Assembly (NCBI GenBank): GCA_964019135.1 | Contig: OZ025260.1 | Location: 28,018,254-28,082,253 of the forward strand | Source of the DNA: Arenicola marina | Taxonomy: Eukaryota > Annelida > Polychaeta > Arenicolidae | DNA length: 64,000 nucleotides | Reading direction: 5' to 3' | In this document: positions 133 to 47,248 of the stretch, piece after piece | Position numbering within the stretch: position 1 is the stretch's first letter | Layout: the number at the start of each line of letters is the position of its first letter | Made by a program: the position numbers and the translations under genes | The notes under the pieces: generated by a model | The model's input: the letters and a program-made list of their open reading frames with translations, nothing else | Databases searched by the model: none | What the model was told of the DNA's origin: nothing

Positions 133-1394
133 ACGATATGACACTGATCATATGTGTCAGACATGACACTGGTCATGTGTCAGACATGACACTGATCATG
201 TGTCAGACATGACACTGATCATGTGACAGACATGACACTAATCATGTGTCAGACAAGACACTGATCATGTGTGTCAGACATGACACTGATCATGTGTCAG
301 ACATGACACTGATCATGTGCCAGACAAGACACTAATCATGTGTCAGACATGACACTGATCATGTGTCAGACATGACACTAATCATGTGTCAGACAAGACA
401 CTGATCATGTGTGTCAGACAAGACACTGATCATGTGTGTCCGACATAACGCTGATCATGTGTCAGACATGACGCTGATCATGTGTCAGACATGACACTGA
501 TCATGTGTCAGATATGACAGTGATTATGTGTCAGATGTGATACTGATCATGTGTCAGATATGACACTGATCATGTGTCAGACATGACCCTTCATGTAGGT
601 CAGACTTGACACTGATCATGTGTCAGACATGACACTTCATGTATGTCAGACATGACACTGATCATGTGTTAGCGATGACACTTCATTTATGTCAGACATG
701 ACACTGATCATGTGTCAGAGATGACACTTCATTTATGTCAGACATGACACTGATCATGTGTCAGACATGACACTGATCATGTGTCAGACCTGACACTAAT
801 CATGTGTGTCAGATATGACACTGATCATGTGTCAGATATTACACTGATTATATGCCAGATATGACAGAGATTATGTGTCAGATATGACACTGATCATGTG
901 TCAGACATGACACTGATTATGTGTCAGACATGACCCTTCATGTATGTCAGACATGACACTTCATGTATGTCAGTCATGACACTTTATGTATGTCAGACAT
1001 GACACTGATCATGTGTCAGATATGACACTGATTAAATGTCAGATATGACAGTGATTATGTGTCAGATGTGACACTGATCATGTGTCAGATATGACACTGA
1101 TCATGTGTCAGATATGACACTGATCATGTGTCAGACATGACACTAATCATGTGTGTCAGATATGACACTGATCATGTGTCAGACATGACACTAATCATGT
1201 GTGTCAGATATGACACTGATCATGTGTTAGACATGACACTGATCATGTGCCAGACAAGACACTAATCATGTGTGTCAGATATGACACTGATCGTGTGTCA
1301 GACATGAATCTGATCATGTGTGTCAGACATGACACTGATCATGTGTGTCAGATATGACACTGATCATGGGTGTCAGATATGAGAATGATGATGT
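133..1394 (+). repeat. 22-24 bp minisatellite upstream of a MOSPD2 acceptor
   Basis: About 55 units of the type ACTGATCATGTGTCAGACAT, some with an extra TG. The array stops about 35 bp before exon 1429-1489. The unit string CAGACATGACACTGAT closely resembles the splice boundary CAG|GACATGGAACTGAT, so the array looks derived from that acceptor. Each unit also has the palindrome TGATCA. Confidence 0.9.
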
Positions 1395-1428
1395 AATAGA
1401 TGTTAAGACTCTTTTTCTCATGTTGCAG

Positions 1429-1489
1429 GACATGGAACTGATAAAATTCCAGATCAGCTGTTTTACAACATACTATCCTGCATTATTGG
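1429..1489 (+). CDS. MOSPD2: MOSPD2 exon, CRAL-TRIO segment
   Basis: Reads DMELIKFQISCFTTYYPALL, matching the human stretch DMDFVRFIINCFKVYYPKYL. The acceptor is TGTTGCAG and the donor GTATGT, leaving phase 1. A 23-bp array resembling this acceptor lies directly upstream. Confidence 0.9.
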
Positions 1490-4400: not shown

Positions 4401-7400
4401 ACTCTGTGATAATGCACAGTTCTTAGAAGCAGTCAAAATGGCGTATTAATTGAAGTCGCATGTCGTTCGTTGCTAAGCAACGAAACAATCCATTGTGCGC
4501 AGGTTTTCATTCTCTGTTCTGTTACCCGGGCAACGATTGTGAAGTTTTCAGCCGGTCTGTCGGACATTGCCAAACAATCTGGTTATACGTTTCCTAGTGT
4601 TTCACTGTGCGTAGAACTGGATGGATATGTCTCATTTAACGTCGAGGTTGACGATGACACTTGACATGTCAGCTAATAGCGACAAAGCCGCAGATTTGAT
4701 GAACGATCGAAACGATGTTGGCTCGCTCGATGAAATACAAGAATCGGATGAAACAGATGCTTTAGCTATTGGTGATATGACCGATTGTAATGGAAACCGC
4801 GATACACTTGAGGTATGGTGGCTGATAAGCTTATGACTGATATATGACTAAGTCCAATAAAACGATTTTAATGCTAAAGTACGAATTCTAGTCATCAAGT
4901 TGCATATATGCAGCTTGTAAAAATGTAGCATGCACGATATGATTAAAGCTGTCTAAACAGTTGTCTCCCGCCCAAATCGTGTTGAAATCTAGATTTGTAA
5001 TATTGTATAGCTTGATTAGTGCAAATATGGCTAAACTGACCGTCAATCGCAAAATACGTTTTCTGCTGTATTTACCATTCCGTTTAGAGCTAATCATAAT
5101 GTTACAATTCTGTCAAATCTCAATGCTAAGTGATCGCTTCACCATATTATGCTACTTTTCTTAATTGGCGGCAAATATCTCCATAAGTAACGTTAAAGGA
5201 ACAAATGTGTGTGCATTAGGTATGAGAATGAATAGTCTTCAGTAAACTGTGGCACTGGACGTGAAAACGTACGAGTAGGTCACACTGCCGATGTAAATGC
5301 TGAGCGTTTACCTGTCTCATGTACGCCACACGTTACAATGTGTTTTTAGGCTATTGATACTTGAGTCGTCTTTACTTGCACCAGCTATGGTGGGGTGTCC
5401 TGGAAATGGAGGGCCGCCCCGATAGCTCAGTTGGTGAGAACGCTCGCACTGAGTGCTCTGGCCACCTGAGAGGCTGACGGCACGTGGATCTGTGGTTCGA
5501 GCCCCGCTGTGGCCATGTCTGTGTGGTCGCAGGATACAGATCCCATGTCTTTCTTTTGCAAAGAGTAGGGGGGTTACTCCTGGGACATGACTCCACTCTA
5601 CCTTTCTTGTCCCATTGACGCGATATGACCAAAAGTGGTTAAAAGCGTCCTGAATATACAACCAACCTGGAAATGGATAGCATATCAGTTTTTTTGTACA
5701 TTTTACGTTTGACAAATGGTGTACATATTTGGTATGTTTATCGTGTACTTACGTGGATTTATAGTCGCTTCTATATGTATTTATAGTCGCTTCTATATGT
5801 ATATATCGTTATAGGCTGACTTTACTAGGAATTTGTTTTTAACGCCCTATTGCACGACCTATAGCAGCCGACAATAGAAATTCGATGTTAACCTGCTTTG
5901 TTGCCTGCTTAACATTTCAGGTGTATCTTGCACACACACAAAACTAGATAGAAAGTATTCTGGCACTTAAATAGAGACGTGTGCGCCGTCAAAAGCACGT
6001 CCGTCGGATGCAGGAGGCCCGAACGAAAAGGAGATACACATTTTAACTGTATAACTAGAGTCCGGTTTCAGTTAAAAGCTGGTTACAATTTAGTTATTCC
6101 TCGTCTAAAGATTTATCATGCAAATTAGTTATTTTCAACGGGCCAAATTTCAACTTTTGCAATTTGGGCAGTTATAGTCTACAGTTGAAATTCGTATCTC
6201 GTTTATTTTGTCCCGGTCCGGAAAGGAGGACAGTTGAAAACAGCGCCGTTGAAAACTCAGTCCGTGGTTTTCAACTAAAACAAAGGCCAATAAATTATTG
6301 CTTTCACTGCATGGATCTATATGTAGCATATATAGCTCCTATTTATTTTCACAACACATAATGGTTAATTATACATCCACAAGCAATTGTATGCATATCC
6401 AATCAACGTACATTAGACAGAAGAGAATGGCAAACATCTGTGAATACAGATCTCCTGGTAGACACTACTAGTCTCTCACAACATCAAGTATATTCTTCGG
6501 CGACCCGTCAAACAGCTGACTGCGGCCTGACGTAGCCAAATAGAATTACGATTCCCTTACACACAATCGAATCGAATGTCAAAGATCACTTCGTGACCCG
6601 GTAAACAGCCGAAATACAATATAATTATGTAACGCAATTAAATATACCTCGGCAGCCTATAAAACGGCCTAACCAGGCCTAAGTACATGACAATTCTCAT
6701 TCTCGTGAAACTGTATGGCGAGCAAAACAGCTGAGTTGTGGCCTGAGTAAAATATAATTCTTTAACACATGCAATCTAATATCATTCGTTTCCCCGAAAA
6801 ACCGCCGACTGCAGCCTTGCAAGCAACACAAAATTCGCTTACACAATCTAATATCACTTTGTGCCCCGTAAAGCTAACTTATCTTTTTCGTAAGGGGGTT
6901 TAACGTTTTCGGCATCCATTCAGATTCATGAGACGATAGTCCGCAACATTTGTGTTTTGGCGTAAACGGTTTACCACGTTGACCTCGCTCGGAAACATAC
7001 CTTCAGACTTGAGATCAAGCGGCAATAAGCCGGACCAAAGTACAGGGCATCCATATAAGGACTGCAGCGAGCCTCAATTGAGTCGCCATTAAATTAAATC
7101 AAAAAGTATTTACTTGTTTTTTAAGGTCACTATTGCTGAGAAGGACAAGCCTCAATTAAGTCTCAATTAACTTATATCCAAAAGTACATACTTGTTATTT
7201 AAGGTCACTTTTGCTGAGAAGGACAAGACGTTGTATACCAGCGTGGATAGCGATCCTTTGTTAGAGGACCCTGCACCATCCCTTTCCAATGACAAATCTA
7301 GAAGTAATGTAAGTGTCACGATAAGGTTCGTCAAACCTTCCTAACTTAGTAAGTAATAAGCCTGTTCCGCTACACTCTCTGACGCCAATCTAAGCAGCCA

Positions 7401-10400
7401 TCGAACACCGCATGCTACACCTGAGAATGAGAATAGCTTTCTATTGAATCAAACACTGATCACGTCCTAATAGTATTGGCGACTTCTGTTGCAGTCCCCG
7501 CCTAAGAAATTGTCGCTCAAGTCTAAACCGAGAGAAGGCAACGTGTTCGTGGGGCCGTTTGCTGCCATCAGGTGAGAGACTGGAGTACTACATGACAAGT
7601 ACGGTACGACAAGGGTGGTATGACAAGTACTGTACGACAAGGGTGGTATGACAAGTACTGTACGACGAGGGTTGTGTGACAAGTACTGTACGACAAGGGT
7701 GGTATAAAAAGTACTGTACGACAAGGGTGGTATGACAAGTACTGTACGACAAGGGTGGTATGAAAAGTACTGTACGACAAGGGTGGTACCACAAGTACTG
7801 TACGACAAGGGTGGTATGACAAGTACTGGATGACAAGGGTGGTGTGACAAGTACTGGATGATAACAGTGACGTGACAAGTACCGGATGACAAGGGTGGTA
7901 TGACGCGTACTGGATGACAAGGGTGGTACGACAAGGGTGGTATGACAAGTACTGTACGACAAGGGTGGTATGACAAGTACTGTACGACAAGGGTGGTATG
8001 AAAAGTACTGTACGACAAGGGTGGTATGACAAGTACTTTACGACAAGGGTGGTATGACAAGTACTGTACGACAAGGGTGGTACGACAAGGGTGGTATGAC
8101 AAGTACTGTACGACAAGGGTGGTATGACAAGTACTGTACGACAAGGGTGGTATGACAAGTACTGTACGACAAGGGTGGTACGACAAGTACTGTACGACAG
8201 GGGTGGTATGACAAGTATTGTACGACAAGGGTGGTATGACAAGTACTGTACGACAAGGGTGGTATGACAAGTACTGTACGACAAGGGTGGTATGACAAGT
8301 ACTGTACGACAAGGGTGGTATGACAAGTACTGTACGACAAGGGTGGTATGAAAAGTACTGTACGACAAGGGTGGTATGACAAGTACTGTACGACAAGGGT
8401 GGTATGACAAGTACTGTACGACAAGGGTGGTATGACAAGTACTGTACGACAAGGGTGGTATGACAAGTACTGTACGATAAGGGTGGTATGACAAGTACTG
8501 TACGACAAGGGTGGTATGAAAAGTACTGTACGACAAGGGTGGTATGACAAGTACTGTACGACAAGGGTGGTATGACAAGTACTGTGCGACAAGGGTGGTA
8601 TGACAAGTACTGTACGACAGGGGTGGTACAACAAGTACTGTACGACAAGGGTGGTATGACAAGTACTGTACGACAAGGGTGATATGACAAGTACTGTACG
8701 ACAAGGGTGGTATGACAAGTACTGTACGACAAGGGTGGTATGACAAGGGTGGTATGACAAGTACTGTACGACAAGGGTGGTGTGACAAGGGTGGTATGGC
8801 AAGTACTGTACGACAAGGGTGGTACGCCAAGGGTGGTATGACAAGTACTGTACGACAAGGGTGGTATGACAAGTACTGTATGACAAGGGTGGTACGACAA
8901 GTACTGTACGACAAGGGTGATATGACAAGTACTGTACCAAGTACTGGTTGACAAGGGTGGTGTGACAAGTACTGAATTACAAGGTTGGTGTGACAAGTAC
9001 TGGTTGACAAGGGTGGTATGACAAGAGTGGTGTGACACGTATTGGATGACAAGGGTGGTGTGACAAGTACTGGTTGAGAAGGGTAGTATGACAAGGGTGG
9101 TATGACAAGTACTGGTTGACAAGGGTGGTTTGACAAGTACTGGATTACAAGGGTGGTGTGACAAGTACTGGATGACAAGGGTGATATGACAAGTACTGGA
9201 TTACAAGTACTGGATGACAAGGGTGGTGTGACAAGTACTGGGTGACAAGGGTGGTGTGACAAGTACTGGATGACAAGGGTGGTGTGACAAGTACTAGATG
9301 ACAAGGGGGGTATGACAATGGGGGTATGACAATGGTGGTATAACAAGTACTGGATGACAAGGGTGGTATGACAAGTACTGGATGACAAGGGTGGTATGAC
9401 AAGTACTGGATGACAAGGGTGGTATGACAAGTACTGGATGACAAGGGTTGTATGACAAGTATGGTATGACAAGGACTGGATGACAAGTACTGGATGACAA
9501 GGGTTGTATGACAAGCACTGGATGACAAGGGTGGTATGACAAGGACTGGTTGACAAGGGTGGTATGACAATCACTGAATGACAAGGGTGGTATGACAAGC
9601 ACTGGATGACAAGGGTGGTGTGACAAGTACTAGATGACAAGGGGGCTATGACCAGTACAGGATTACGACAGATCAGTGTTTCTTCCATTGTGTGTCTCAT
9701 AAGCTTGCTGAAAACATAATGTTTATAAAGCGTTAACTTTAGGGCTGAAATGCAGCCTAATGTATGTGTATTTTGAAATACTAAATACTGCTTTTTGTTT
9801 TCTTTCCCCATTCCTTTACAGTCCCGCTGATAACTTTACGTTCGCTGTAGCGGCAGACGGAAAAGAAACTTCGGACATTCTGACTGTGGCCAATGTGTCT
9901 GATAGCATGGTGGCATACAAGGTAACACTTAACAACATGGTGGCATACAAGGTAACACTTAACAACATGGTTGCATACAAGGTAACACTTAACAACATGG
10001 TGGTATACAAGGTAACACTTCACAACATGGTGGCATACAAGGGAGCACTTAACAACATGGTGGTGTACAAGGTAACACTTAACAACATGGTGGCATACAG
10101 GGTAACACTTAACAACATGGTAGTGTGCAAGGTAACACTTAATATGGTGGCATACAGGAGATCACTTAACAACATAGTTGCATAGAAAATAACCCTTAAC
10201 AACACCATGGTATACAAGGTAACACTTAACAACACGGTGGCATACAAGGTAACACTTAACAACACGGTGGCATACAAGGTAACACTTAACAACCTAGTGG
10301 CATACAAGGTAACACTGTTGCATATGAAGTAGCATTTTACGGCGTATTAGCCAGCACTGCACTGGCTGCTATATAAAAATAAAACACAACAGTGAACCTT

Positions 10401-12525: not shown

Positions 12526-12905
12526 GCGGCGCCACCGTACAGACCGCCTACACCTCCTCCTAAAAGCGCCACCATACATACCACCTACATCTCCTGTAAA
12601 ATGTAGGCGGCGCCACCGTACATGCCGCCTACCCCTACTCCTGTAAATTGTAGAGGGCGCCACCGTACATGCCGCCTACGCCTTCTCCTGTAAAATGTAG
12701 AGGGCGCCACCGTGCAGACCGCCTACACCTTCTGTAAAATGTAGACGGCGCCACCGTACAGACCGCCTACACCTCCTCCTGAAGGCGCCACCATACATAC
12801 CACCTACATCTCCTGTAAAATGTAGGCGGCGCCACCGTACAGACCGCCTACACCTCCTCCTGTAAAATGTAGGCGGCGCCAGCGTACAGACTGCCTACAT
12901 CTCCC
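12488..12905 (+). repeat. MOSPD2: Minisatellite spanning the MOSPD2 stop codon
   Basis: About ten units of 37-47 bp: ACCGTACATGCCGCCTAC, CCTCCTCCTGTAAAATG, TAGGCGGCGCC. The first unit encodes the last 12 residues and contains the TAG. GTAGGCGGC of one unit pairs with GCCGCCTAC of the next, so the transcript could form serial hairpins. Confidence 0.93.
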
Positions 12906-13920: not shown

Positions 13921-13922
13921 TT

Positions 13923-16900: not shown

Positions 16901-17275
16901 TCATCCTGAGCCAATGACGCGTCATCCCGAGCCAATGACGCCTCATCCCCAATGACGTACGCCTCATCCCGAGCCAATGACGCGTCATCCTGAGCCAATG
17001 ACGCCTCATCCTGAGCCAATGACGCCTCATCCTGAGCCAATGACGCCTCATCCTGAGCCAATGACGCCTCATCCTGAGCCAATGACTCCACATCCTGAGC
17101 CAATGAAGCGTCATCCTGAGCCAATGACGCCTCATCATGAGCCAATGACTCCAAATCCTGAGCTAATGAAACGTCATCCTGAGCCAATGACGCCTCATCC
17201 TGAGCCAATGACGCCTCATCGCGAGCCAATAACGCCTCATCCTGAGCCAATGACGCCTCATCGCGAGCCGAGCCG
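13923..17275 (+). repeat. 21-bp satellite-like array, 3.35 kb
   Basis: About 160 units of GAGCCAATGACGCCTCATCC. Variants TGACGCGTCA and TGACTCCACATCCC are arranged in longer blocks: 13923-14330 recurs at about 15753-16260, an offset near 1,830 bp. Because 21 is divisible by three it is open on both strands (PEPMTPH and AQDEASL repeats). I see no start, splice or homology evidence for a protein. Confidence 0.95.
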
Positions 17276-18924: not shown

Positions 18925-19033
18925 ATGGCAAATAGAAGTGTTCTCCTCCAGAACATGGAGTCCAAAGCAAACCAGGCAGATAAAATGATAGTGTGTCTGA
19001 AGGAGCAGTTAAAAGAACTGACAAGGAATGCTG
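18925..19033 (+). CDS. AIMP1: AIMP1 coding exon 1
   Basis: [20 protein letters not shown] onwards, coiled coil. Acceptor TTTTCAG at 18910-18916 leaves a short 5' UTR piece before the ATG. Donor GTAAGA, phase 1. Confidence 0.9.
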
Positions 19034-32400: not shown

Positions 32401-35400
32401 GTACAATAGAGGTTACAGTGAGACTGAGGGACACGTACAATAGAGGTTACAGTGAGACTGAGGGACAGATACAATAGAGGTTACAGTGAGACTGAGGGAC
32501 ACGTACAATAGAAGTTACAGTGAGACTGGGGGACACGTACAATAGAGGTTACAGTGAGACTGAGGGACAGATACAATAGAGGTTACAGTGAGACTGAGGG
32601 ACACGTACAATAGAGGTTACAGTGAGACTGAGGGACACGTACAATAGAAGTTACAGTGAGACTGGGGGACACGTACAATAGAGGTTACAGTGAGACTGAG
32701 GGACAGATACAATAGAAGTTACAGTGAGATTGGGGGACACATACAACAGAAGTTACAGTGAGAATGGGGGACACGTACAATAGAGGTTACAGTGAGACTG
32801 GGGGACACGTACAATAGAGGTTACAGTGAGACTGAGGGACACGTACAATAGAGGTTACAGTGAGACTGGGGGACACATACAACAGAAGTTACAGTGAGAC
32901 TGGGGGACACGTACAATAGAGGCTTAAGGAAAACACAGAAACGGAGGGATAAACACAACGTAGGTTACATCATAACGTGTCCGTTCAGCATTACTATTGT
33001 GCATTACCATCCCAACAATATCAGACACACTAGACACCTTAATGTGACACGGCAAAGACAACCCCTCGCCTGTAAACCTCTCCAACACTTCTCAAGTCAA
33101 GAGACTTCTCACCTGTAAGCCTCCCAAGATCGTCACAGTTCTCACCTGTAAACCTCCCCAAAACTTCACAATCAAGACAATTCTCACTTGTAAAGCCCCA
33201 GAACTTCACAGCCAACATACTTCTCACCTGTAAACCTCCCCAGAACTTCACAGGCAGAACTTTTCTCCTGTAAACTTCCCCAGAACTTCACAGCCAAGAG
33301 ATTTCTTACCTGTAAACCTCCCCAGAACTTCACAGCCAAGAGATTTCTCACCTGTAAACCTCCCCAGAACTACACAGTCAAGAGATTTCTCACCTGTGAA
33401 CCTCCCCAGAACTTTACAGCCAAGAGATTTCTCACCTGTTAACCTCCCCAGAACTTCACAGCCAAGATTTCTCACCTGTAAACCTCCCCAGAACTTCACA
33501 GCCAAGAGATTTCTCACCTGTTAACCTCCCCAGAACTTCACAGCCAAGATTTCTCACCTGTAAACCTCCCCAGAACTTCACAGCCAAGAGATTTCTCACC
33601 TGTAAACCTCCCCAGAACTTTACAGCCAAGAGATTTCTCACCTGTAAACCTCCCCAGAACTTCACAGCCAAGAGACTTCTCACCTATAAACTTCCCCAGA
33701 ACTTCACAGCCAAGAGATTTCTCACCTGTAAACCTCCCCAGAACTTCACAGCCAAGAGACTTCTCACCTATAAACCTCCCCAGAACTTCACAGCCAAGAG
33801 ATTTCTCACCTGTAAACCTCCCCAGAACTTCACAGCCAAGAGCGTTCTCACCTGTAAACCTCCCCAGAACTTCACAGCCAAGAGTTTTCTCACCTGTAAA
33901 CCTCCCCAGTATTTCACAGACAAGAGATTTCTCACCTGTAAACCTCCCCAGAACTTCACAGCCAAGAGATTTCTCACCTGTAAACCTCCCCAGAACTTCA
34001 CAGCCAAGAGCTTTCTCACCTGTAAACCTCCCCAGAACTTCACAGCCAAGAGATTTCTCACCTGTAAACCTCCCCAGAACTTCACAGCCAAGAGATTTCT
34101 CACCTGTAAACCTCCCCAGAACTTCACAGCCAAGATATTTCTCACCTGTAAACCTCCCCAGAACTTCACAGCCAAGAGATTTCTCACCTGTAAACCTCCC
34201 CAGAACTTCACAGCCAAGATATTTCTCACCTGTAAACCTCCCCAGTATTTCAGACAAGAGATGTCTCACCTGTAAACCTCCCCAAAACTTCACAGCCAAG
34301 AGATTTCTCACCTGTAAACCTCCCCAGAACTTCACAGCCAAGAGCTTTCTCACCTGTAAACCTCCCCAGAACTTCACAGCCAAGAGATTTCTCACCTGTA
34401 AACCTCCCCAGAACTTCACAGCCAAGAGCTTTCTCACCTGTAAACCTCCCCAGAACTTCACAGCCAAGAGCTTTCTCACCTGTAAACCTCCCCAGAACTT
34501 CACAGCCAAGAGATTTCTCACCTGTAAACCTCCCCAGAACTTCACAGCCAAGAGATTTCTCACCTGTAAACCTCCCCAGAACTTTACAGCGAGCAGGTCA
34601 CGGTGTCGGTCGGCCAGATACACCGTCTGCACGATCCCTTCATCACCGCTGCAATGTATGGCAAACCACTATAATCATAATGGATTTAATACAAACGACC
34701 AGTAAACAGATATCTCACAAAGCCACAAAGCTCGTCAAACTCCAGTTGTAACCCCAACCTGTTTATATCGCATTGGAGTTCATGCTGGATATATGTTGGC
34801 ATCTGTGTGTTATTCATACAAAGATCGAAGTTTAAATGTGTTGAATCTCTAACTTCCGGTTAAGGTGTTTCAAGAGTGATAACGTCGGGCTCCATTGTAA
34901 GGCATGTAACGGCGGGGGCCGGTTTGGTCCTCAGCGGGAGTTGAACTCCCCGTCCTCCCGATCTCGAGTCAGCCACTCTAACCCTAACTCTGACCCCTCT
35001 AGCCTCGGCTAGACGGGTCACCCCTTTAGCCGAGGTTAGTACGAATGGTTTGACTGATACACCCACAATCTCTACCACAATATTGATTAAAGTGCATTGA
35101 GTGTCGGAAGAAGTGTTCAGTTACAGCGTTAGTCCCTTGTGTGGGGCGGGATGAACTAGGGCACCCACCTCTGTCTGTCGAAGGTAGACACGGCAGACAC
35201 GTGGACCACAACCCCGACCACATCCAGCTCCCCGTGCGGGGGGTGACATCTGGCGGCATGAAGCTCCCGGAACAGCGTCACCTGGCGGTGAGGACACAGA
35301 GAGGTAAGATACCAGAGTCATCAAGACATTCATAGTTATATCTGTATCAAATGACTACTCACATGGGAAACAAAGTTGCATGCGATAAAATCAAAGTTGT

Positions 35401-38400
35401 CAAACTCAGTTGTGGTCCCTGTAGTATTGTCAACCTAATATAAAATTCATCCTCTAAATATATCAATGTGCGAGACTACTATTTTAATTTACATGTAAGT
35501 ATTTTAAAAGGAATAGCTCAAGACTTAAATTACTCTCAAGCAACGGTGATGGTCGCCTATCTTCGCAGACATGGCCAATTTACCTTCAGTAGAACGCTTT
35601 ACATCTGTAGGTCATGTAGCGATAATTGGAAGGGTCAGGGTAGACAGAAGCCATTTCTCCGAAAATAAAACCTACTCTTTGCGAGTAAGAGTTACATGTA
35701 AGGTATCTTTATCCTGCACAAACATTTGCAGAGGTTAGGCTCGAACCCCGCACCGGCCGCTAGGGCTGGCCTGGCCTGGCAGAGCACGCACAACAATAGC
35801 CGAACCCGCTGCCTACCAGACCACGGGCTGGCCCTTGGGTAAATTGAGAACCAGTTCCCTCAGTAATGACGCCAGACGTTCCATACCTCTCGGGCTTCGT
35901 AGATGACGTCACGCAGGTTGTCATCGACCGGAAGTGGTTGGTAGCGGGTTGACCTTGTGGCGGTGACCGCCACGTGGCCGATTGTCATCCGGGATCTGAG
36001 GCCACACAGAACATACACTTGAGTAATCACTGATGGCTGCCCATCACGCCCTCTAGATTTGTAAAGAGCTAAAGGTTAGAAGCACTGGGACCTGGGGCCA
36101 CACAGAACATACACTTCAGTAATCACTGATGGCTGCCCATCACGCCCTCTAGATTTGTAAAGAGCTAAAGGTTAGAAGCACTGGGACCTGGGGCCACACG
36201 CTTGAGTAATCACTGATGGCTGCCCATCACGCCCTCTAGATTTGTAAAGAGCTAAAGGTTAGAAGCACTGGGACCTGGGGCCACACATAACATACACTTC
36301 ATTAATCACTGATGACTGCCCATCACGCCCTCTAGATTTGTAAAGAGCTAAAGGTTAGAAGCACTGGGACCTGGGGCCACACAGAACATACACTTCAGTA
36401 ATCACTGATGGCTGCCCATCACGCCCTCTAGATTTGTAAAGTGCTAAAGGTTAGAAGCACTGGGACCTGGGGCCCACAGAACATACACTTGAGTAATCAC
36501 TGATGGCTGCCCATCACGCCCTCTAGATTTGTAAAGAGCTAAAGGTTAGAAGCACTGGGACCTGAGGCCACACATAACATACACTTGAGTAATCACTGAT
36601 GGCTGCCCATCACGCCCTCTAGATTTGTAAAGAGCTAAAGGTTAGAAGCACTGGGACCTGGGGCCACACAGAACATACACTTCAGTAATCACTGATGGCT
36701 GCCCATCACGCCCTCTAGATTTGTAAAGTGCTAAAGGTTAGAAGCACTGGGACCTGGGGCCCACAGAACATACACTTGAGTAATCACTGATTGCTGCCCA
36801 TCACGCCCTCTAGATTTGTAAAGAGCTAAAGGTTAGAAGCACTGGGACCTGGGGCCCACAGAACATACACTTGAGTAATCACTGATGGCTGCCCATCACG
36901 CCCTCTAGATTTGTAAAGAGCTAAAGGTTAGAAGCACTGGGACCTGGGGCCACACAGAACATACACTTCAGTAATCATTGATGGCTGCCCATCACGCCCT
37001 CTAGATTTGTAAAGTGCTAAAGGTTAGAAGCACTGGGACCTGGGGCCACACATAACATACACTTGAGTAATCACTGATGGCTGCCCATCACGCCCTCTAG
37101 ATTTGTAAAGAGCTAAAGGTTAGAAGCACTGGGACCTGGGGCCCACAGAACATACACTTGAGTAATCACTGATGGCTGCCCATCACGCCCTCTAGATTTG
37201 TAAAGAGCTAAAGGTTAGAAGCACTGGGACCTGGGGCCCACAGAACATACACTTGAGTAATCACTGATGGCTGCCCATCACGCCCTCTAGATTTGTAAAG
37301 AGCTAAAGGTTAGAAGCACTAGGACCTGGGGCCACACATAACATACACTTCAGTAATTATTGATGCTCTTCACGCCTCTTAGAACAGACAACTAGATGCG
37401 TAACGGGCTGGAACAGGCTGACTTCAGATAATATTATGTGTTTTTACTTACATTGTATGTTATAACATCGCACAAAAAAAAAGTTAGTGCATGTCTTTCT
37501 GTTACGTAACAGAAACGGACTCGAATGGGATTCGGCAACACGGATATGACCTATGGGATAACCCTACCGTGTCGACAGTGATGACGAAAACAACACAGGC
37601 AACACCTATGGGACAGACCTATAGTACAAACCTATCATCTGGATGGGGCTTACCATATGACCCCCCCACCCCCCTCCTAACAAGTCTCGTACCTGGACTC
37701 GGCCGCCTGCAGACTGTAGATCCGGAACCGGTTGCCCTCCTTCAGGAGCTGTGGCAGGTCCTCAGGCGGCCGCCAGACGGTCAGGAGTGTGTCTGGAGCA
37801 GGCACAAGCAGGCACGTCGTCAGGCTCACACACAGCTCGCTATCTGAACCCCTCGCGCTCTGATACATCATGCAGACACACACAGAGACGTACCCCAGCG
37901 GCATCAAGTTTCAGGCTAGTTTGAGTGACATGTCCACTACAATACACCGCTCCATAATTCGAGCTAGGACCCGCCCACGCTTGAGTCCTTTTTCGTTAAT
38001 CGTGAGTATGAAATTGACAACCATAGCTGATGTGAGAAGTGAAAAGTACTCATCTCTGAAATTGACAAGAAAGTGACATGCTGCTTTGTTTGTCGGACTA
38101 GTTTGTCGATATAACGTCCAAACAAATCGGTCAATCTTGTAAATAACGCCGCCAATATTATGTTACAAAGAAGGCAATATGCTGAGCCTGCAGTAACCGA
38201 ATGACAGTGGTGAGGAAGGTAACATCAAGCAAGGAAGCAACCAACCTACTCGTGATTAGCTCAATGTAGCAGGAAAACCGGGTAACTCTGGGGACACTCA
38301 CCGCACGAGGCATCCACGTCTGACGTCAGACATCCGGCCACGCGCACCTTTAGCAGCGGCACCACGTTACGGGCGGGCGCCTGTAGGGGGAGCCACCGTA

Positions 38401-41400: not shown

Positions 41401-44400
41401 ATTGCAACTAAAAGGCTTCGAGGTATACAGGGTAAGGAACCCTCCGAGAGGTATATAACTGACATATTTCCTCATAGCTAATCTAACGCTTAGCAATTCT
41501 ACTTGCGTTCTACTTCCCAACCCAGAAATCATACTTGATCAACTTTAAATAAATGATATATGATTTGACTAATCATTTTAACATGCGTAATTTCTGTCGA
41601 TGTCACTGGCCAAAATCAAAGATAATTCACCTAGTATACCGAAGGGAAATCCTCCCGTGGTCTTAATAGACAAAGCACTTGATGTGACAACCCCGTTTGT
41701 CTTGGACAACAACGAACACATTTGAAAATACAACTGATTGATTCGCTGTTAGCGTTGCCGCGCCGCGCACTGGAAGCCGAGAAGCCACTGTCAGACAGAG
41801 GAAGGCTCGTGGGAGCACAGAGGACTGGGGCCCCTGGTGCCATGGGGGGTGGGAGAGGGGGGCGGGGGGAGGGCGTGGCCAGATCAATACGGGCGCGTGG
41901 TGGAACTGAGCCAACACAAAGAACGCAATTTGATCCCTGTAATACCACTGTCAATACCACACCATCCGAAGTTGACCTACAAATCGAACATCGCCCACAG
42001 AGAATCCAGGTGTGGCTGAACCAGATATCTCGATTACCAGAAGGTTCGTTGGGCTTGGGACGTTTTGATAATAGTTGTCAATCAATGGACAGTGGAAGCG
42101 TAGCTTAACGGAGCGACGGCTAACAAATCTACCCAAAGAAGGGGCACGGAACGAAACCGGTTGAAATAATATCTCGTCTAGTGTGGTCTCGAGTAAATCC
42201 GTAACCACTGATAATTATGGAACAATAGCAATAATCAAGAATCAGACATTCGTGTTTGAAAAAAACAAAAGAAAAACATGTATCTCACGCAAATCTGGAA
42301 AATTTCATGACTTTTCTATGATTGATCCATGATTTTCCCACGGAAAATTCATGGAATAGTCACCTTAGTCACCTAAGGTTAAATTTAATTTACAGGTACG
42401 GGTTAGAAAAACATAAGCATTTCTGCACCACGGCCTCTTCTTCCCCTCATATCCATCCGATCCACTCACATTATTTTATTTATTAGCCATGGTTTAGAAA
42501 CCTAACGACTACCCATGGGGGTGGAGCAGGCAGTTATGACTAATATGGTTGGTTGGTTGGTTATTCAGGACACACAACCATTTTTGGTCATATCGCATCA
42601 ACGAGAGAAGGACGGAAGAGTGAAGCCATGTCCCCGGGGGTAACCCCCTACTCTTTGCGAAAAGGGACATGGGATCTTTATGCAGCGATCACACAGACAT
42701 GGCCACAGCGGGGTTCGAACCATCAATCCACTAAGCTATCGGGCCGGCCCCGATGACTCACCTGCAGTGGGTAGACCCTGGGGACCACTGCCCACTGAGC
42801 TATCGGGCCGGCCCCGATGACTCACCTGCAGTGGGTAGAGCCTGGTGACCACTGCCCACTGAGCTACCGAGCCGGCCCCGATGACTCACCTGCAGTGGGT
42901 AGATCCTGGTGACCACTACCCACTGAGCTATCAGGCCGGCCCCGATGACTCGCCTGGAGCGGGTAGATCCTGGTGACCACTACCCACTGAGCCATCGGGC
43001 CGGCCCCGATGACTCGCCTGGAGCGGGTAGACCCTGGTGACCACTACCCACTGAGCTATCGGGCCGGCCCTGATGACTCACCTGCAGTGGGTAGATCCTG
43101 GTGACCACTACCCACTGAGCTATCGGGCCGGCCCCGATGACTCGCCTGGAGCGGGTAGACCCTGGTGACCACTACCCACTGAACTATCGGGCCGGCCCCG
43201 ATGACTCGCCTGGAGCGGGTAGACCCTGGTGACCACTACCCACTGAGCTATCGGGCCGGCCCTGATGACTCACCTGCAGTGGGTAGATCCTGGTGACCAC
43301 TACCCACTGAGCTACCGGGCCGGCCCCGATGACTCGCCTGGAGCGGGTAGACCCTGGTGACCACTACCCACTGAGCTATCGGGCCGGCCCCGATGACTCA
43401 CCTGCAGTGGGTAGACCTTGGTGACCACTACTCACTGAGCTATCGGGCCGGCCCCGATGACTCACCTGTAGTGGGTGGATCCTGGTGACCACTACCCACT
43501 GAGCTATCGGGCCGGCCCCGATGACTCGCCTGGAGCGGGTAGACCCTGGTGACCACACTACCCACTGAGCTATCGGGGCGGCCCCGTTGACTCACCTGGC
43601 GTGGGTAGACCCTGGTGACCACTACCCACTGAGCTATCGGGGCGGCCCCGTTGACTCACCTGGCGTGGGTAGACCCTGGTGACCACACTACCCACTGAGC
43701 TACCGGGCCGGCCCCGATGACTCACCTGCAGTGGGTAGATCCTGGTGACCACTACCCACTGAGCTATCGGGCCGGCCCCGATGACGCACCTGGAGCGGGT
43801 AGACCCTGGTGACCACACTACCCACTGAGCTACCGGGCCGGATCCGATGACTCACCTGCAGTGGGTAGATCCTGGTGACCACTACCCACTGAACTATCGG
43901 GCCAGCCCCGATGACGCACCTGGAGCGGGTAGACCCTGGTGACCACACTACCCACTGAGCTACCGGGCCGGCCCGATGACTCACCTGCAGTGGGTAGATC
44001 CTGGTGACCACTACCCACTGAGCTATCGGGCCGGCCCCGATGACTCGCCTGGAGCGGGTAGACCCTGGTGACCACACTACCCACTGAGCTATTGGGCGGC
44101 CCCGTTGACTCACCTGGCGTGGGTAGACCCTGGTGACCACTACCCACTGAGCTATCGGGGCGGCCCCGTTGACTCACCTGGCGTGGGTAGACCCTGGTGA
44201 CCACACTACCCACTGAGCTATCGGGGCGGCCCCGTTGACTCACCTGGCGTGGGTAGACCCTGGTGACCACTACCCACTGAGCTATCGGGGCGGCCCCGTT
44301 GACTCACCTGGCGTGGGTAGACCCTGGTGACTCACCTGGAACGGGTAGACCCTGGTGACCACACTACCCACTGAGCTATCGGGGCGGCCCCGTTGACTCA

Positions 44401-47248
44401 CCTGGAGCGGGTAGACCCTGGTGACTCACCTGGAGCGGGTAGACCCTGGTGACTCACCTGGCGTGGGTAGACCCTGGTGACTCACCTGGCGTGGGTAGAC
44501 CCTGGTGACTCACCTGGAGCGGGTAGACCCTGGTGACTCACCTGGCGTGGGTAGACCCTGGTGACTCACCTGGCGTGGGTAGACCCTGGTGACTCACCTG
44601 GCGTGGGTAGACCCTGGTGACTCACCTGGAGCGGGTAGACCCTGGTGACTCACCTGGAGCGGGTAGACCCTGGTGACTCACCTGGAGCGGGTAGACCCTG
44701 GTGACTCACCTGGCGTGGGTAGAACCTGGTGACTCACCTGGAGCGGGTAGACCCTGGTGATGATGACATCCACACAGCCGACGAGACCGCCGTCGGGGTA
44801 GAGGGAGGAGAGCGGGAGGGGGGCGGGGTGGGGGCGGCGCCAGTACCCCAGGCGGGCGTCCCAGGGTGCTCGCCGCGTGCTGTTCGCACAGATCTTCAGC
44901 ATAGTGTCTGGGGACGCCTGCATCGGAAGAACGTTATCACTCATTATCGCTCAACGCGTTTTGCACACGACCATCGATTCATATTATCGCATAAAGAAAT
45001 CCACCATCGCTTTTACATCAATATCAATCTGATCAGTTTTTCATCCACATTGACACATCAATCATCACTTTAAATACCAATAGAAATCACTGCAAGGTTC
45101 GCACATAAATAATAACAAAAAGTGACTTGTTGTGGCCAAACAACAATTCTGAAATAAACCGTTAAAAAAATCGAAAAAATCGAATTAATTAATTGCACAA
45201 TAGCAAGCTGTCCAGCACACCCTTATGAAGAAATAAGACAATAGTAAGAAGGAAAACACAGCACACTCAGTCCTAGCCTGCCAAACATTCTTGCTCTTGC
45301 CAAACAGATACGTTTTCGTTGGCTAGGGTACGTTCATCGTATGGAAAGTGAACACATTCCAAAGATGTGTTCTACGGTGAACTCGCCGCCGGCAAAATGC
45401 CAACCCGACGGCCAAAGCTCAGTTTTAAGGAGGTTTTCAAACGTGACATGCAGGCTTTCAGCATCGATTCGCATTCTTTGGCAGCCCATAAGAGGCAATG
45501 GGCACGTCTCGTGCGAGATGGAATGGCCGACCATGACGGGCTCTGGTTTGAGAAATTGGGACTAGAAACGCCAATCTAGGCGTACAGTGAGAAATGACCA
45601 AGACCTAACGACAGGTCATCGATGCGACGACTGCGGTAAACTTCGTCGGTCACAGATATATGCTTATTTAGTCATAAGCAAAAATGCCGCGAAACAAAAA
45701 GAAGTACTTAAACCACACCAAAAAGGTGTGTTACGCAGACGGACAGATGCCAACCATGCACACATTTATGCTACTTTTTTCACTGCATTTTTACATTGAG
45801 CCAGGTAAAGCCAAATTTTTTAAAAAGTAGGACAAATGGGATGGCGACCAAAAAGTACAAACAAGTAGGCAACGTAGAATCACTGGACAACATGCATTTG
45901 TAAAAACCAGCCTGCGATGACTTTTACTCTACCACAGACCACAGGAGAAACGTATATGGGAGCCCAAATGAAAAAAGTCCCTTCGTCACGCACATATTAG
46001 ATCAAGAGGAACCAAATTGGAGCGGTACTTGACAATAGAGTGGTGTAAATCTTTGTGATAAAATTCACATGAAGACATAACATCAATACCGACCTGGAAA
46101 CACATTCCTGCCTGCATTATGGATGGGGAGTCGAGGCGGGGGGCGGGGGGATCCACATCGGCGGCCCACTGGCACCGCAAACACACATCTCCCGGCATGC
46201 CTCGCGTTACGTCAAGCTCTCAATAAGACAGTAGACTTGACTGCCATGCAACCTCGACATTCATCCACCGATCGGTGACATGTTTTGTGAGAGAGCGCTA
46301 AACGAACCTGGTAGATCCTGGTAGTACCCGGACAGCCGTCAAACCATTCAGGAGAGACGCTCTTGAAAAGTCCCCAAAGATAACGTGCCTTAAAATTTGG
46401 TGTACAGACCTGCAGCGGTGGCGCCGCGCCGTGGTCGCCGACCAGTTCCGCGCCGTACGTCACGACCTTGTCGCCGGCGCGCAGGCGTCCCTCCAGCACC
46501 AGTGACGTCAGAGGGCGGTCCAGGGCGGTGCGGATGGAGTACCAGCCGTCGGTCACCTCCAGGACGCCCTGTCGGCAGAAAGCGCCGCGTCACATTTAGT
46601 GTCATAGAAAAATTTGTCAAGCCAGGTCATAAAACACGATGGCGGTGTACCACACGACAACGACCACCAATATAGAGTTTGTGAGGTATTGGTTCTATTA
46701 CAGTGCAAAAGTGCAATCTGCGCGATAAAAATATACCGAGCGCTTATTTAAACGGGCGCTTATTCGAGCAACTACAGTACATATCATTTGAGGACAATAT
46801 CCGGTGGTTCTTCCATGTTATGGCGTACCATTGTCTCAGCATAGCTCACGTATGACTCAACCCTATCATTTACTATAATAATCCTCTTCGTGGGCTTTAA
46901 CATCGAAGATGGACCACACTCCCCAGCCAAGTGGTTAATAACAGGCCAATAAATACATTCGTTCCTAGCGTCCTATATATATAACTAAACAGCTAACAGA
47001 CGTGCCGCTACAAAATGGGGTCTGATATTCTACCAGAAGCTACTTAAAGATGGATGCTTCTACTCACGTAAGACGACTTGAGCGTTTGGTCGCCGCTCTC
47101 ACCGACCGCCTTCTTCGGCGTCCTGCCACCAGGGGTCGCCCGCTGAGGCAGGTCACGTGACTCCGGTAGATGGATGATTTGGACGATGCAGAGGACGAGG
47201 GTCTTCTGGGGACTGTCGTCGTGCTCGAGGATTTTCTTCAAGGCACTC
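25010..47248 (-). CDS. BRCA2: BRCA2 homologue, 3' part (14 exons)
   Basis: DNA-repair mediator that loads RAD51 on single-stranded DNA. Exons, 5' to 3' on the minus strand: 47248-47068, 46568-46410, 44917-44738, 40326-40176, 39480-39359, 38947-38828, 38380-38302, 37843-37693, 35995-35887, 35281-35169, 34648-34564, 28139-27948, 27647-27573, 26413-25010. All use GT-AG and their phases chain into 1,039 codons plus TGA. They cover OB1 (TDGWYSIRTALDRPL, ANSTRRAPWDARLGYW, VGCVDVIITRVYPLQ), the coiled tower (FRSLRAEERAAQAFEKDRQR to QAEFQRKMDDLQQE), OB2 (LLTVWRPPEDLPQLLKEGNR), OB3 (LLAVKFWGGLQ, SNLQWRP) and a C-terminal RAD51-binding-like tail (LRSPMTCGVRRAFKPP). BRC repeats, most of the helical domain and the N-terminus are not in the window or not recognised. 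Five introns carry SINEs or arrays touching splice sites. Confidence 0.95.
25107..25325 (-). repeat. BRCA2: 39- and 33-bp coding repeats in BRCA2
   Basis: Three 39-bp units (DLAGTTASLSQNS type) followed upstream by three 33-bp units (DLAGTIVSETH), sharing the DLAGT core. Confidence 0.88.
25505..25660 (-). repeat. BRCA2: 36-bp coding minisatellite in BRCA2
   Basis: Four units, plus form GGGGGGTTCGCTTCCCCCGG, encoding GSEPPTRATSPG-type 12-residue repeats. Confidence 0.9.
25846..26216 (-). repeat. BRCA2: 18-bp coding minisatellite in BRCA2
   Basis: About 20 units, plus-strand form GATGATCCTGTCACGAGC, read on the minus strand as six-residue VTGSSL/VTESSL repeats. In frame with the BRCA2 terminal exon. 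Confidence 0.93.
26452..26705 (-). mobile_element. SINE just upstream of the BRCA2 terminal exon
   Basis: Same family as 5411, same orientation as BRCA2. A 14-bp target duplication CCGGTCAACATGGG occurs at 26438-26451 and 26706-26719. The 3' end lies 38 bp before the terminal-exon acceptor. Confidence 0.92.
26786..27147. mobile_element. MITE with GCCCC-TCCAGAC ends, copy 1
   Basis: Inverted ends AAGCCCCCTCCAGACGACA and TTGTCTGGACGGGGCTT. Internal GTCACGTGACAGAAACGGAC and CACCTATAGAACAAACCTA recur at 37485-37652. In the last BRCA2 intron. Confidence 0.7.
27228..27484 (+). repeat. GC-rich array in the last BRCA2 intron
   Basis: Variable units CAGGAACGCGGGACGCCGGG / ACCC, 16-24 bp, about 12 copies. 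Open on several frames; not coding. Confidence 0.88.
27573..27647 (-). CDS. BRCA2: BRCA2 exon, OB3 end
   Basis: DTKTFAADMRTVLETKWTGV then SPVTR, similar in position to human [21 protein letters not shown]. Acceptor GTTGCCAG, donor GTAAGT, phase 0. Confidence 0.85.
27721..27930 (+). repeat. GTAATGGTTGTAATGGCAG degenerate repeat
   Basis: Interrupted short repeats of AATGGTTGTAATGGCAGTA type in the BRCA2 intron 27648-27947. Confidence 0.6.
27948..28139 (-). CDS. BRCA2: BRCA2 exon, OB3
   Basis: SHSVADLLTPSVICCCSNLQ, WRPRAAG and FSLNPKESYLRQELARFRED, matching human AASNLQWRPESKSG and SASPKEGHFQETFNKM. Acceptor CCCTCAG|TCTCAC is phase-consistent and is the seed of the 34-bp array. Confidence 0.93.
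28140..32922 (+). repeat. BRCA2: 34-bp array of a BRCA2 3' splice site, 4.8 kb
   Basis: About 140 units. On the minus strand each contains GTGTCCCTCAG or GTGTCCCCCAG followed by TCTCACTGTAAC, copying the true acceptor CCCTCAG|TCTCACAGTG at 28140. Rare variants recur at fixed distances: CACGCACCA at 29372, 30664 and 31922, and CAATTGAGG at 28936, 30228 and 31486. These give higher-order blocks of 1,292 bp (38 units) and 1,258 bp (37 units). Confidence 0.97.
33078..34566 (-). repeat. BRCA2: 42-bp array of a BRCA2 exon end plus donor
   Basis: About 35 units. On the minus strand each is GTGAGAAATCTCTTGGCTGT then GAAGTTCTGGGGAGGTTTACAG: the exon 3' end followed by its donor. 42 bp is 14 codons (VRNLLAVKFWGGLQ), so the BRCA2 frame stays open for about 25 copies beyond the real donor at 34563. 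Confidence 0.97.
34564..34648 (-). CDS. BRCA2: BRCA2 exon, OB3
   Basis: GDEGIVQTVYLADRHRDLLA then VKFWGGLQ, matching human [20 protein letters not shown]. Donor CAG|GTGAGA, phase 0. Its last 30 nt plus donor make up the 42-bp array that follows. Confidence 0.93.
34905..35030 (-). mobile_element. tRNA-like fragment (possible SINE)
   Basis: On the minus strand GGGGAGTTCAACTCCCGC resembles a B box; no clear duplication. Contains CCCTAACTCTGACCCC. Confidence 0.3.
35169..35281 (-). CDS. BRCA2: BRCA2 exon, OB3 start
   Basis: VTLFRELHAARCHPPHGELD and VVGVVVHVSAVSTFDRQ, matching human [20 protein letters not shown] and IGFVVSVV. Donor GTGGGT, phase 2. Confidence 0.92.
35701..35834 (-). mobile_element. 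tRNA-derived SINE, third type
   Basis: Minus strand: GGGCCAGCCCGTGGTCTGGT head, GGGGTTCGAGCCTAACC B box, then GCAGGATAAAGATACC like the tail of the 5411 family. In a BRCA2 intron. Confidence 0.55.
35887..35995 (-). CDS. BRCA2: BRCA2 exon, OB2 end
   Basis: SRMTIGHVAVTATRSTRYQP and LPVDDNLRDVIYEARE, matching human ERANIQLAATKKTQYQQLP and DEILFQIYQPRE. The acceptor GGCCTCAG is repeated in the adjoining 96-bp array. Confidence 0.93.
35996..37365 (-). repeat. BRCA2: 96-bp array of a BRCA2 3' splice site
   Basis: About 14 units. On the minus strand each has TATGTTCTGTGTGGCCCCAG then GTCCCAG, copying the real acceptor (..TGTGTGGCCTCAG|ATCCCGG at 35996). The rest of the unit carries CATCACGCCCTCTAGATTTG. 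Units with 9-bp deletions are present. Confidence 0.96.
37485..37652. mobile_element. MITE with TCCAGAC ends, truncated copy 2
   Basis: GTGCATGTCTTTCTGTTACG and CCTATCATCTGGATGGGGCT match the right part of 26786-27147. Confidence 0.65.
37693..37843 (-). CDS. BRCA2: BRCA2 exon, OB2
   Basis: LLTVWRPPEDLPQLLKEGNR and FRIYSLQAAES, matching human [22 protein letters not shown]. The acceptor TTCAG|AT is chosen because it alone fits the phase; its pyrimidine tract is weak. Confidence 0.9.
38302..38380 (-). CDS. BRCA2: BRCA2 exon, OB2
   Basis: APARNVVPLLKVRVAGCLTS then DVDASC, aligned with human [21 protein letters not shown]. Donor G|GTGAGT, phase 1. Confidence 0.82.
38625..38808. mobile_element. 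Possible MITE with TTGTGGG ends
   Basis: Weak inverted ends TTGTGGGAAATGTTTTGGT and ACCAAAATAATACCCACAA. In a BRCA2 intron 20 bp from exon 38828-38947. Confidence 0.4.
38828..38947 (-). CDS. BRCA2: BRCA2 exon, tower coiled coil
   Basis: ALLSLAQREALAEARRQHAE and AEFQRKMDDLQQE, a long amphipathic helix like the returning tower helix. Phase 0; donor GTACCG. Confidence 0.88.
39359..39480 (-). CDS. BRCA2: BRCA2 exon, tower
   Basis: RRWTPAEVARLQGGTELLAA and AQQAADPSSFE, aligned with human [20 protein letters not shown]. A SINE sits at its 3' splice site; the first four exon bases belong to the SINE's target duplication. Confidence 0.92.
39487..39744 (-). mobile_element. SINE inserted at a BRCA2 3' splice site
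   Basis: Family of 5411, minus orientation, same as BRCA2. Target duplication CAACCTGCAA (39477-39486) and CAGCCTGCAA (39745-39754), one mismatch. In the BRCA2 direction this reads TTGCAGGTTG, so the acceptor dinucleotide lies inside the duplicated target and exists on both sides of the SINE. Confidence 0.9.
40176..40326 (-). CDS. BRCA2: BRCA2 exon, OB2/tower start
   Basis: FLEKQADGSSVFRSLRAEER and GIYGKLQQEFEESSNR, matching human WMEKTSSGLYIFRNEREEE and LFTKIQEEFEEH. Ends in phase 1. Confidence 0.93.
40510..41247 (-). mobile_element. SINE split by a DNA transposon
   Basis: Family of 5411. A 15-bp target duplication CAGAGGGGTCGCTGA lies at 40495-40509 and 41248-41262. The SINE body is interrupted at its CCACTTTTGGTC segment by the element at 40548-41022. 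Confidence 0.93.
40548..41022. mobile_element. 475-bp non-autonomous DNA transposon, copy 1
   Basis: Perfect 12-bp terminal inverted repeats CAGGCTGTCCAG; 6-bp target duplication ACTTTT (40542-40547, 41023-41028). Interior rich in AAAAGTAGGAAAA, no coding. Nearly identical to 57438-57920. The six-base duplication fits few superfamilies (Dada-like or a variant hAT); family not settled. Confidence 0.92.
41263..42540. other. BRCA2: BRCA2 intron, no feature recognised
   Basis: Within intron 40327-44737. A short G-rich run at 41844-41877 and AT-rich sequence; open frames here lack homology. Confidence 0.5.
42547..42751 (-). mobile_element. SINE at the edge of the donor array
   Basis: Family of 5411: GGTTGGTTGGTTATTCAGGA tail at left, GGGGTTCGAACC B box, head CACTAAGCTATCGGGCCGGC at right. 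The D-arm side of its head continues into the 64-bp array. Confidence 0.85.
42752..44325 (-). repeat. BRCA2: 64-66 bp hybrid array: BRCA2 donor plus SINE head
   Basis: About 24 units. Plus-strand form: GATGACTCACCTGCAGTGGG, TAGACCCTGGTGACCACTAC, CCACTGAGCTATCGGGCCGG. The first two parts copy the exon end and donor of 44738 (minus CAG|GTGAGTC); the third is the SINE head with its A box. Both sources flank the array, so it formed after SINE insertion. Confidence 0.95.
44310..44757 (-). repeat. BRCA2: 28-bp array of a BRCA2 exon end plus donor
   Basis: About 16 units, plus form GACTCACCTGGAGCGGGTAG and ACCCTGGT. On the minus strand each gives ACCAGGGTCTACCCGCTCCAG-like exon end and the donor GTGAGTC. 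28 bp is not divisible by three, so extra units would shift the frame. Confidence 0.96.
44738..44917 (-). CDS. BRCA2: BRCA2 exon, OB1 end
   Basis: ASPDTMLKICANSTRRAPWD and PLPLSSLYPDGGLVGCVDVI through TRVYPLQ. Donor CTCCAG|GTGAGT, phase 0. Its last ~20 nt and donor seed the array at 42752-44757. Confidence 0.95.
45204..45894. mobile_element. DNA transposon copy 3, interrupted by a LINE
   Basis: Degraded relative of 40548-41022: start CAAGCTGTCCAGCACACCCT, end ATCACTGGACAACATG. The middle (about 45248-45745) is LINE. No matching target duplication remains. Confidence 0.7.
45248..45745 (+). mobile_element. LINE 3' fragment, copy 2
   Basis: C-terminal part of a non-LTR reverse transcriptase: IRFRWLGYVHRMESEHIPK, then, after a one-base frame change near 45366, FYGELAAGKMPTRRPKLSFK and RDMQAFSIDSHSLAAHKRQW. 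The finger HRCDDCGKLRRSQI follows. Ends CAGATGCCAACC, as in the copy at 3238. Truncated at the 5' end; clade unresolved. Confidence 0.8.
46410..46568 (-). CDS. BRCA2: BRCA2 exon, OB1
   Basis: GVLEVTDGWYSIRTALDRPL and YGAELVGDHGAAPPLQ, matching human IIELTDGWYAVKAQLDPPL and HGAELVGS. Phase 0 on both sides; donor GTCTGT. Confidence 0.95.
46738..46781. repeat. GGGCGCTTATTCGAGCAA repeat fragment
   Basis: AGCGCTTATTTAAACGGGCG and CTTATTCGAGCAACTACAG; same motif as 10737-10782. Confidence 0.5.
47068..47248 (-). CDS. BRCA2: BRCA2 exon, helical/OB1 junction
   Basis: SALKKILEHDDSPQKTLVLC, matching human [20 protein letters not shown]. Acceptor TTTATTTACAG, donor GTGAGT, phase 0. The first exon I can identify. 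Confidence 0.93.

Follow-up and report, generated by a model that had tools for sequence, protein, structure and literature searches.

Minisatellites spanning splice junctions in the annelid Arenicola marina: recurrence at unrelated loci and a possible excess at donor sites

Several tandem arrays in a 64,000-nucleotide stretch of the Arenicola marina genome (C13:28018254-28082253, hereafter the window; assembly of 867 Mb in 762 contigs) run across exon-intron boundaries and carry copies of them. This locus raises the question of whether such arrays are born preferentially at splice junctions or fall on them by chance. A sequence-only reading of the window had suggested boundary-directed tandem duplication, recalling the 'mirage' minisatellites of amphioxus. 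Mirages were reportedly described in lancelet Adh3 by Canestro, Roser and Albalat in 2002. A lancelet origin of the present genome was rejected on sequence grounds. Among the 120 of 7999 hits listed, mitochondrial COX1 on contig C762 is 91% identical to that of Pilargis wolfi and 87-90% to those of Saccocirridae and Nereididae, which puts the genome among annelids near Phyllodocida. For the AIMP1 of the window the annelid Ridgeia came first among hits bearing a name, and none of the legible names in the 120 listed, many being truncated or absent, was a lancelet.

Three genes were recognised in the window, MOSPD2-like and AIMP1 on the forward strand and BRCA2 on the reverse strand (Table 1). 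The gene with the MSP domain was taken to be MOSPD2-like. The MSP exon at 9822 scored below the curated cut-off of PF00635 by itself, and the next exon (tested as 10817-11134) scored above it; a search of the MSP exon against phage gave no match, as expected. 49 splice junctions were placed from open frames, peptides and splice signals, a few of them approximately, the guiding peptides being ones that we took to correspond to human proteins. 42 non-overlapping arrays called by TRF make up 43% of the window. One of 3.3 kb (13924-17269, 21-bp unit, ∼161 copies) lies between the MOSPD2-like and AIMP1 genes. An ARAGORN tRNA-Ala call at 25553-25641 sits in a 36-bp tandem array (25500-25648) and is probably spurious.

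TRF and base-by-base comparison confirmed that at least five arrays in the window copy splice junctions, at donors 9921, 34564 and 44738 and acceptors 28139 and 35995, and Pfam placed these in two unrelated genes, MOSPD2-like and BRCA2, as the sequence-only reading had held. The array at the MSP-domain exon repeats CATGGTGGCATACAAG|GTAACACTTAACAA, the last exon base being 9921. When junction 9921|9922 was compared with the copy one period (30 bp) into the intron, 16 exon nt were found to be copied; each unit corresponds to 10 aa, and a 157-aa open frame extends over 9712-10182. The duplication over the acceptor called at 7204 takes in ∼24 exon nt, with a copy matching 22 of 24 positions when scored without TRF. 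It is an incipient junction array and was absent from the earlier reader's list. At 12487-12904 a 47-bp array begins at the MOSPD2-like protein's C-terminal membrane segment or immediately past it, and may vary the C-terminus.

A sixth array, at position 133, had been proposed as probably touching and copying a splice site. Touching was ruled out, the array (138..1394) stopping 34 bp before the acceptor at 1429. Copying held up as probable: the unit matches that junction at 20 of 24 positions with one gap, a match equalled by 1 of 5000 shuffles and by 8 of 10634 (overlapping) non-array segments of the window. The exon part alone gave a weaker result, with 15 of 2000 shuffles and 36 of 2388 segments scoring as high. 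Judged from its unit, this is probably a degenerate seventh junction-copying array.

In BRCA2 the acceptor at 28139, the first base of an OB3 exon, has 6 exon nt copied in a 34-bp unit. The motif CAGT.TCA occurs 137 times in 28100-32950, and the A and G of the acceptor are conserved at 1.0 and 0.99 across the array. At the other end of the same intron the 42-bp array copies the OB3 exon end LLAVKFWGGLQ (last exon base 34564), with 21 exon nt copied exactly and 27 with one mismatch; degenerate 42-bp copies can be traced to ∼33060. Each unit corresponds to 14 aa, and a 376-aa open frame extends over 33541-34668. The two facing arrays account for 6208 of the 6424 bases (97%) of intron 28140-34563, with ∼35 donor units at one side and ∼141 acceptor units at the other, bearing out the earlier claim of two arrays in one intron. 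That the intron is real follows from BRCA-2_OB3 positions 29-59 and 60-120 falling on the flanking exons. Its position presumably agrees with that in the human gene.

The acceptor at 35995, the start of another BRCA2 exon, has 4 of 5 exon nt copied; the AG and the sequence upstream are copied and the exon part is weak. The OB1 exon ends in CVDVIITRVYPLQ (last exon base 44738), and here 23 exon nt are copied with 3 mismatches in a 28-bp unit. The array at this donor begins as the 28-bp unit repeated 13.1 times (44394-44760) and continues as a 64-bp composite unit repeated 24.9 times (42728-44331), in which the tail of a SINE-like dispersed repeat has been fused with the junction unit. This repeat has seven core matches in the window, including one at 42728-44331, where the array has grown across the border of the dispersed element.

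Table 1. Genes, exons and junction arrays of the window, and myosin junctions elsewhere in the genome that carry a spanning array.
Feature	Position	Strand	Basis
MOSPD2-like gene	∼1429-12477	+	MSP domain (Pfam Motile_Sperm)
Probable degenerate acceptor-copying array, 23-bp unit x53.7	138..1394	+	TRF and unit/junction match
Two-copy 78-bp duplication over acceptor called at 7204	7070..7227	+	Array-junction overlap analysis
MSP-domain exon, MOSPD2-like gene	9822..9921	+	Pfam PF00635 and splice sites
Donor-spanning array, 30-bp unit x13.8	9906..10316	+	TRF, Pfam, junction-copy comparison
AIMP1	∼18925-24059	+	tRNA_bind domain
BRCA2	∼27.5-46.6 kb	-	Pfam BRCA-2_OB1, Tower, BRCA2DBD_OB2, BRCA-2_OB3
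BRCA2 OB3 exon, acceptor array at 5' end	27985..28139	-	PF09104 positions 60-120; 3' end approximate
Acceptor-spanning array, 34-bp unit x140.9, ..CCCTCAG|TCTCAC	28134..32922	-	TRF and junction-copy comparison
BRCA2 OB3 intron between donor-copying and acceptor-copying arrays	28140..34563	-	Flanking OB3 exons
Donor-spanning array, 42-bp unit x34.8	33139..34590	-	TRF, Pfam, junction-copy comparison
BRCA2 OB3 exon, donor array at 3' end	34564..34648	-	PF09104 positions 29-59 and splice sites
Acceptor-spanning array, 96-bp unit x14.5, ..GGCCCCAG|GTCCC	35991..37365	-	TRF and junction-copy comparison
Donor-spanning array of BRCA2 OB1 exon	42728..44760	-	TRF, Pfam, junction-copy comparison
BRCA2 OB1 exon, C-terminal part of fold	44738..44917	-	PF09103 and splice sites
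Myosin donors with spanning arrays	L032 4499; L034 7438, 6543; L038 401; L042 1172
Myosin donors with spanning arrays, continued	L043 812; L045 571; L046 394
Myosin acceptor with spanning array	L042 416

The sequence-only reading had proposed asking whether arrays near junctions match them. This was non-discriminating because any array overlapping a junction copies it by construction, and the density of array starts against distance to the junction was utilized instead. The base rate was taken from 20 regions of 10 kb (L009-L028) at round coordinates on contigs C1-C8. Tandem arrays covered a mean of 45% and a median of 39% of these regions, five of which were array throughout (a single array each), and 0.60 arrays started per uncovered kb; minisatellites or satellites seem to have inflated the genome. 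A tandem load of ∼45% means that some junction overlap is expected, so that comparison with a base rate was needed. Arrays overlap 6 of the 49 window junctions; when the 28 arrays that lie below 48.8 kb were re-placed at random, the average was 1.4-2.2, with a probability of reaching at least six of 0.0003 to 0.015 depending on exon tolerance.

Units were also compared by their resemblance to a donor site, a comparison that proved uninformative. A donor-consensus score of at least 9 was reached by 6 of 106 units from the window and random regions, and by 3 of 67 from the random regions alone; the mean in non-array segments was 3.5. The top random-region match (L027) resembles an ordinary intronic array. 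L021 and the array at 28134 both have 34-bp units, and these are unrelated. Three tandem copies of CAGGTGAGT gave 2875 genome matches against 913 for the reversed sequence, counts that were set aside because a few large arrays may dominate them.

A fairer test was provided by myosin genes, since the window had been picked for its junction arrays. A myosin-head search gave 77 matches, and 56 of these 77 exons were sampled from stretches with clustered matches; the stretches were picked by match clustering without sequence, with the open-frame lengths in the match table visible. The second batch (20 exons) was picked with the arrays of L030-L036 already known. Two uncallable acceptors, donor 3733 of L035 (by hand) and five low-scoring calls (2 donors and 3 acceptors) were excluded, leaving 104 junctions. 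An array extending at least 3 nt into the exon was counted as spanning. Such arrays were found at 9 of the 104 junctions (8 of 53 donors and 1 of 51 acceptors) of this set, which is a single gene family in a few clusters; three came from the first 36 exons and six from the second 20, and L034 and L042 carry two each of the nine. Junction copying thus recurs outside the window, at unrelated loci on several chromosomes. Boundary spanning is weakest at 35995 and at L032 4499, where 4-5 exon nt are copied.

In the window and myosin sets combined, arrays whose edge lies 3-60 nt into the exon span 15 of 152 junctions, namely 11 of 77 donors and 4 of 75 acceptors. Scored without TRF, 16 of 151 junction 24-mers are copied (at least 19 of 24 positions) within 400 bp of intron, against 2 of 755 unrelated stretches, a control drawn from other loci and not from introns of the same genes, which shows copying and not enrichment. 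The myosin share of these is 11 of 103 (9 of 53 donors, 2 of 50 acceptors).

To measure enrichment, array starts were counted outward from the exon along the intron and expressed per uncovered kb, with 120-1500 bp as deep intron. 48 of the 49 window junctions were used, the uncertain acceptor at ∼22000 being left out; the L032 donor was entered as 4527 and afterwards placed at 4499, with its distance class unchanged. At pooled donors, which include the selected window, 11 arrays start at -60..-3, or 2.63 per kb against 0.71 in deep intron (3.7-fold, P 0.0009). Myosin donors gave 8 starts (2.81 against 0.71 per kb; 4.0-fold, P 0.003), where ∼2 spanning arrays would be expected in 53 donors, and the ratio was 7.0-fold with arrays of at least 2.4 copies only. 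Window donors gave 3 starts (3.1-fold, P 0.10). Over -2..+60 the donor ratio was 3.4-fold, and 1.8-fold (P 0.22) without periods under 20 bp.

Acceptors behaved differently from donors in the myosin set, with 1 start (0.35 against 1.14 per kb; 0.3-fold). The pooled acceptors stood at background (4 starts, 0.94 against 0.96 per kb; 1.0-fold) and the window acceptors at 3.2-fold (3 starts, P 0.09). Arrays do occur at both junction types, as the sequence-only reading stated, and a clear acceptor enrichment was not found in any of these three sets. Donors and acceptors differ at P 0.03 in myosin and P 0.10 with the window added (Fisher). The suggested boundary-directed excess was seen at myosin donors and not clearly at boundaries in general: junction-spanning arrays at both myosin types together are 1.7-fold enriched (P 0.10), so that the enrichment claim rests on the donor split, for which type and distance were not fixed beforehand and P values are uncorrected. 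GC content is higher in array flanks than in background; array rate differs ∼1.1-1.5-fold by GC bin, and acceptor GC is equally high. GC or a G-run was rejected as the cause of the donor excess, the effect being too small. In this modest sample array births may exceed the deep-intron level near donors, and do not clearly do so near acceptors.

We consider it probable, from the arrays' sequence, that they are mirage-type minisatellites, mostly silent by-products of active minisatellite birth, to which a donor-side excess is added. A short segment (28-126 bp) that chanced to straddle an exon-intron junction would be tandemly duplicated, and the duplicate would expand by slippage or unequal exchange. 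The outermost copy would stay joined to the exon, retaining the junction and leaving the reading frame intact, and because it remains attached all added copies would be intronic. Copies with a splice-like GT or AG would behave neutrally and be spliced out. Junction arrays would be frequent because this annelid genome gives birth to minisatellites at a very high rate, and above that base rate extra arrays would be born within ∼60 bp of donors, on the exon side as well. In the single assembly analysed the arrays appear to be neutral and recent.

Purifying selection by itself does not account for the donor excess, as it can reduce density from the neutral intronic level but not increase it. The simplest remaining cause would be a locally raised duplication rate, with eight cases outside the window. 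We tentatively propose, as something short of an even chance, that transcribed 5' splice sites are a hotspot of minisatellite birth, running at ∼4 times the deep-intron level within 60 bp of donors and not of acceptors, and that introns are rebuilt from copies of their donor ends, nearly in full at the extreme.

A narrower explanation is that R-loops, polymerase pausing or microhomology repair raise the rate of first duplications within ∼60 bp of donors. The excess on either side of the donor junction (3.7-fold at -60..-3 and 3.4-fold at -2..+60) is in its favour, as is the absence of a fixed register: the exon share of the unit ranges from 0.14 to 0.79 in 11 arrays and looks uniform, as would be expected if duplications arise in a zone and not at a cut site. 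The sample is small, however, the intronic part of the excess drops when periods under 20 bp are removed, and window acceptors are raised to a similar degree. This explanation would seem somewhat unlikely as it stands; the donor bias is compatible with R-loops or splicing-linked damage, which the sequence-only reading had suggested, and with other causes.

Chance overlap, with arrays starting anywhere in genes at ∼0.6-1 per uncovered kb and no boundary preference, is consistent with the 45% tandem content of the random regions, with pooled acceptors lacking an excess, with the 1.4-2.2 junction arrays that random placement already yields in the window and with the P of 0.10 for both myosin types together. 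It does not account for the excess at donors, overall or in myosin, which GC leaves unexplained, and we regard it as unlikely.

Selection offers another route to the asymmetry if duplications arise equally at both intron ends and those at acceptors are purged, as an upstream AG would be used and downstream donors ignored. The imbalance in myosin (8 of 53 against 1 of 51) and the copying of just 5-6 exon nt by two of the three window acceptor arrays are as this would predict. Yet selection could depress acceptors below the intronic level and not lift donors above it, pooled acceptors lie at background and not below, and AG is kept in the copies of both acceptor arrays tested; we think this quite improbable as the explanation.

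The copies themselves bear on function. In the seven arrays tested GT or AG is kept in 0.86-1.0 of copies, a conservation close to that of the other columns of the unit, with the GT columns of the MSP array below average; this is suggestive neither of cryptic sites being purged nor of a function. Periods divisible by 3 were found in 3 of 11 donor-spanning arrays, which is chance and gives no frame preference; in-frame selection was rejected on this count, and the 'two in frame' that the sequence-only reading had singled out are not special. That repeated junctions serve as backup or alternative splice sites or as variable-length protein segments is very improbable on these results, in spite of the open frames through the BRCA2 OB3 and MOSPD2-like arrays, and the mirages of lancelet Adh3 and globin genes are likewise said not to disturb splicing (PMC3087553).

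The amphioxus precedent is real, as two papers (PMC3087553, PMC3902484) attest. In the former, mirages are carried by the lancelet globins BflGb6 and BflGb9 and described from several genes as arrays of 10-160 bp units, many of whose copies carry GT or AG; in the latter, one is given for lancelet PGBD5 and troponin C is mentioned. By these accounts the worm arrays are the same kind of object: the unit spans the exon-intron boundary, its length (28-126 bp in spanning arrays) lies inside the published range, GT or AG is present in many copies, and both intron ends can be affected. The host here is an annelid and not a cephalochordate, copies number up to 141, and one intron is filled by two facing arrays. 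Neither a sampled rate (here 15 of 152) nor a donor bias was present in the parts of the lancelet accounts available. New here are the phylum, the proportion of sampled junctions affected, the intron filled by two arrays and the bias towards donors.

Human segmental-duplication genes (PMC2812944) have internal tandem repeats with ∼30-bp units, some at exon-intron boundaries, that likewise alter gene structure. Those have ∼4 copies on average and lengthen exons or make putative new introns, whereas the worm arrays are often long and kept to the intronic side where an intron already exists. The Rogers model (as cited in PMC3087553) has introns arise when AG|GT proto-splice sites are tandemly duplicated, and shares with the worm arrays the duplication of sequence bearing splice signals. 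The worm junctions, in contrast, look ordinary and established as read from the DNA, and no new intron is shown. In another annelid, the earthworm, metallothionein genes have intronic minisatellites and fourth-exon duplications reportedly absent from the transcript (PMC12783039). The latter might be related to junction arrays; the repeats are not described, in the part available, as copying splice junctions. A literature search on mirage or junction-spanning minisatellites, covering few subscription papers and some sources in part, brought up the lancelet, human and earthworm cases and found no annelid array that copies a splice junction.

Mirages have so far been reported mainly from single lancelet genes. 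The annelid rate of ∼1 in 10 sampled junctions suggests that genomes rich in minisatellites produce such arrays generally, and offers a system in which mirage origin can be counted beyond description. If the donor bias is true, tandem-duplication mutagenesis would be tied to the 5' splice site, which bears on intron growth and gain. An intron with ∼35 donor and ∼140 acceptor copies is an extreme natural test of site choice by the spliceosome.

Some further features were noted in the myosin stretches. Arrays that start 0-15 bp into the intron after a donor, with no exon copied, are found at L044 1243, L047 603, L038 1055 and L041 405. The donor at L046 ∼394-398, which bears a junction array, may belong to a GC-AG intron (CAG|GCAAGT). 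A myosin gene in L030-L031 (C4:367500-385299), where array coverage is merely 1-2%, has clusters of similar exons, four over profile positions ∼110-154 and four over ∼590-640, which we take to recall the mutually exclusive exons of insect Mhc.
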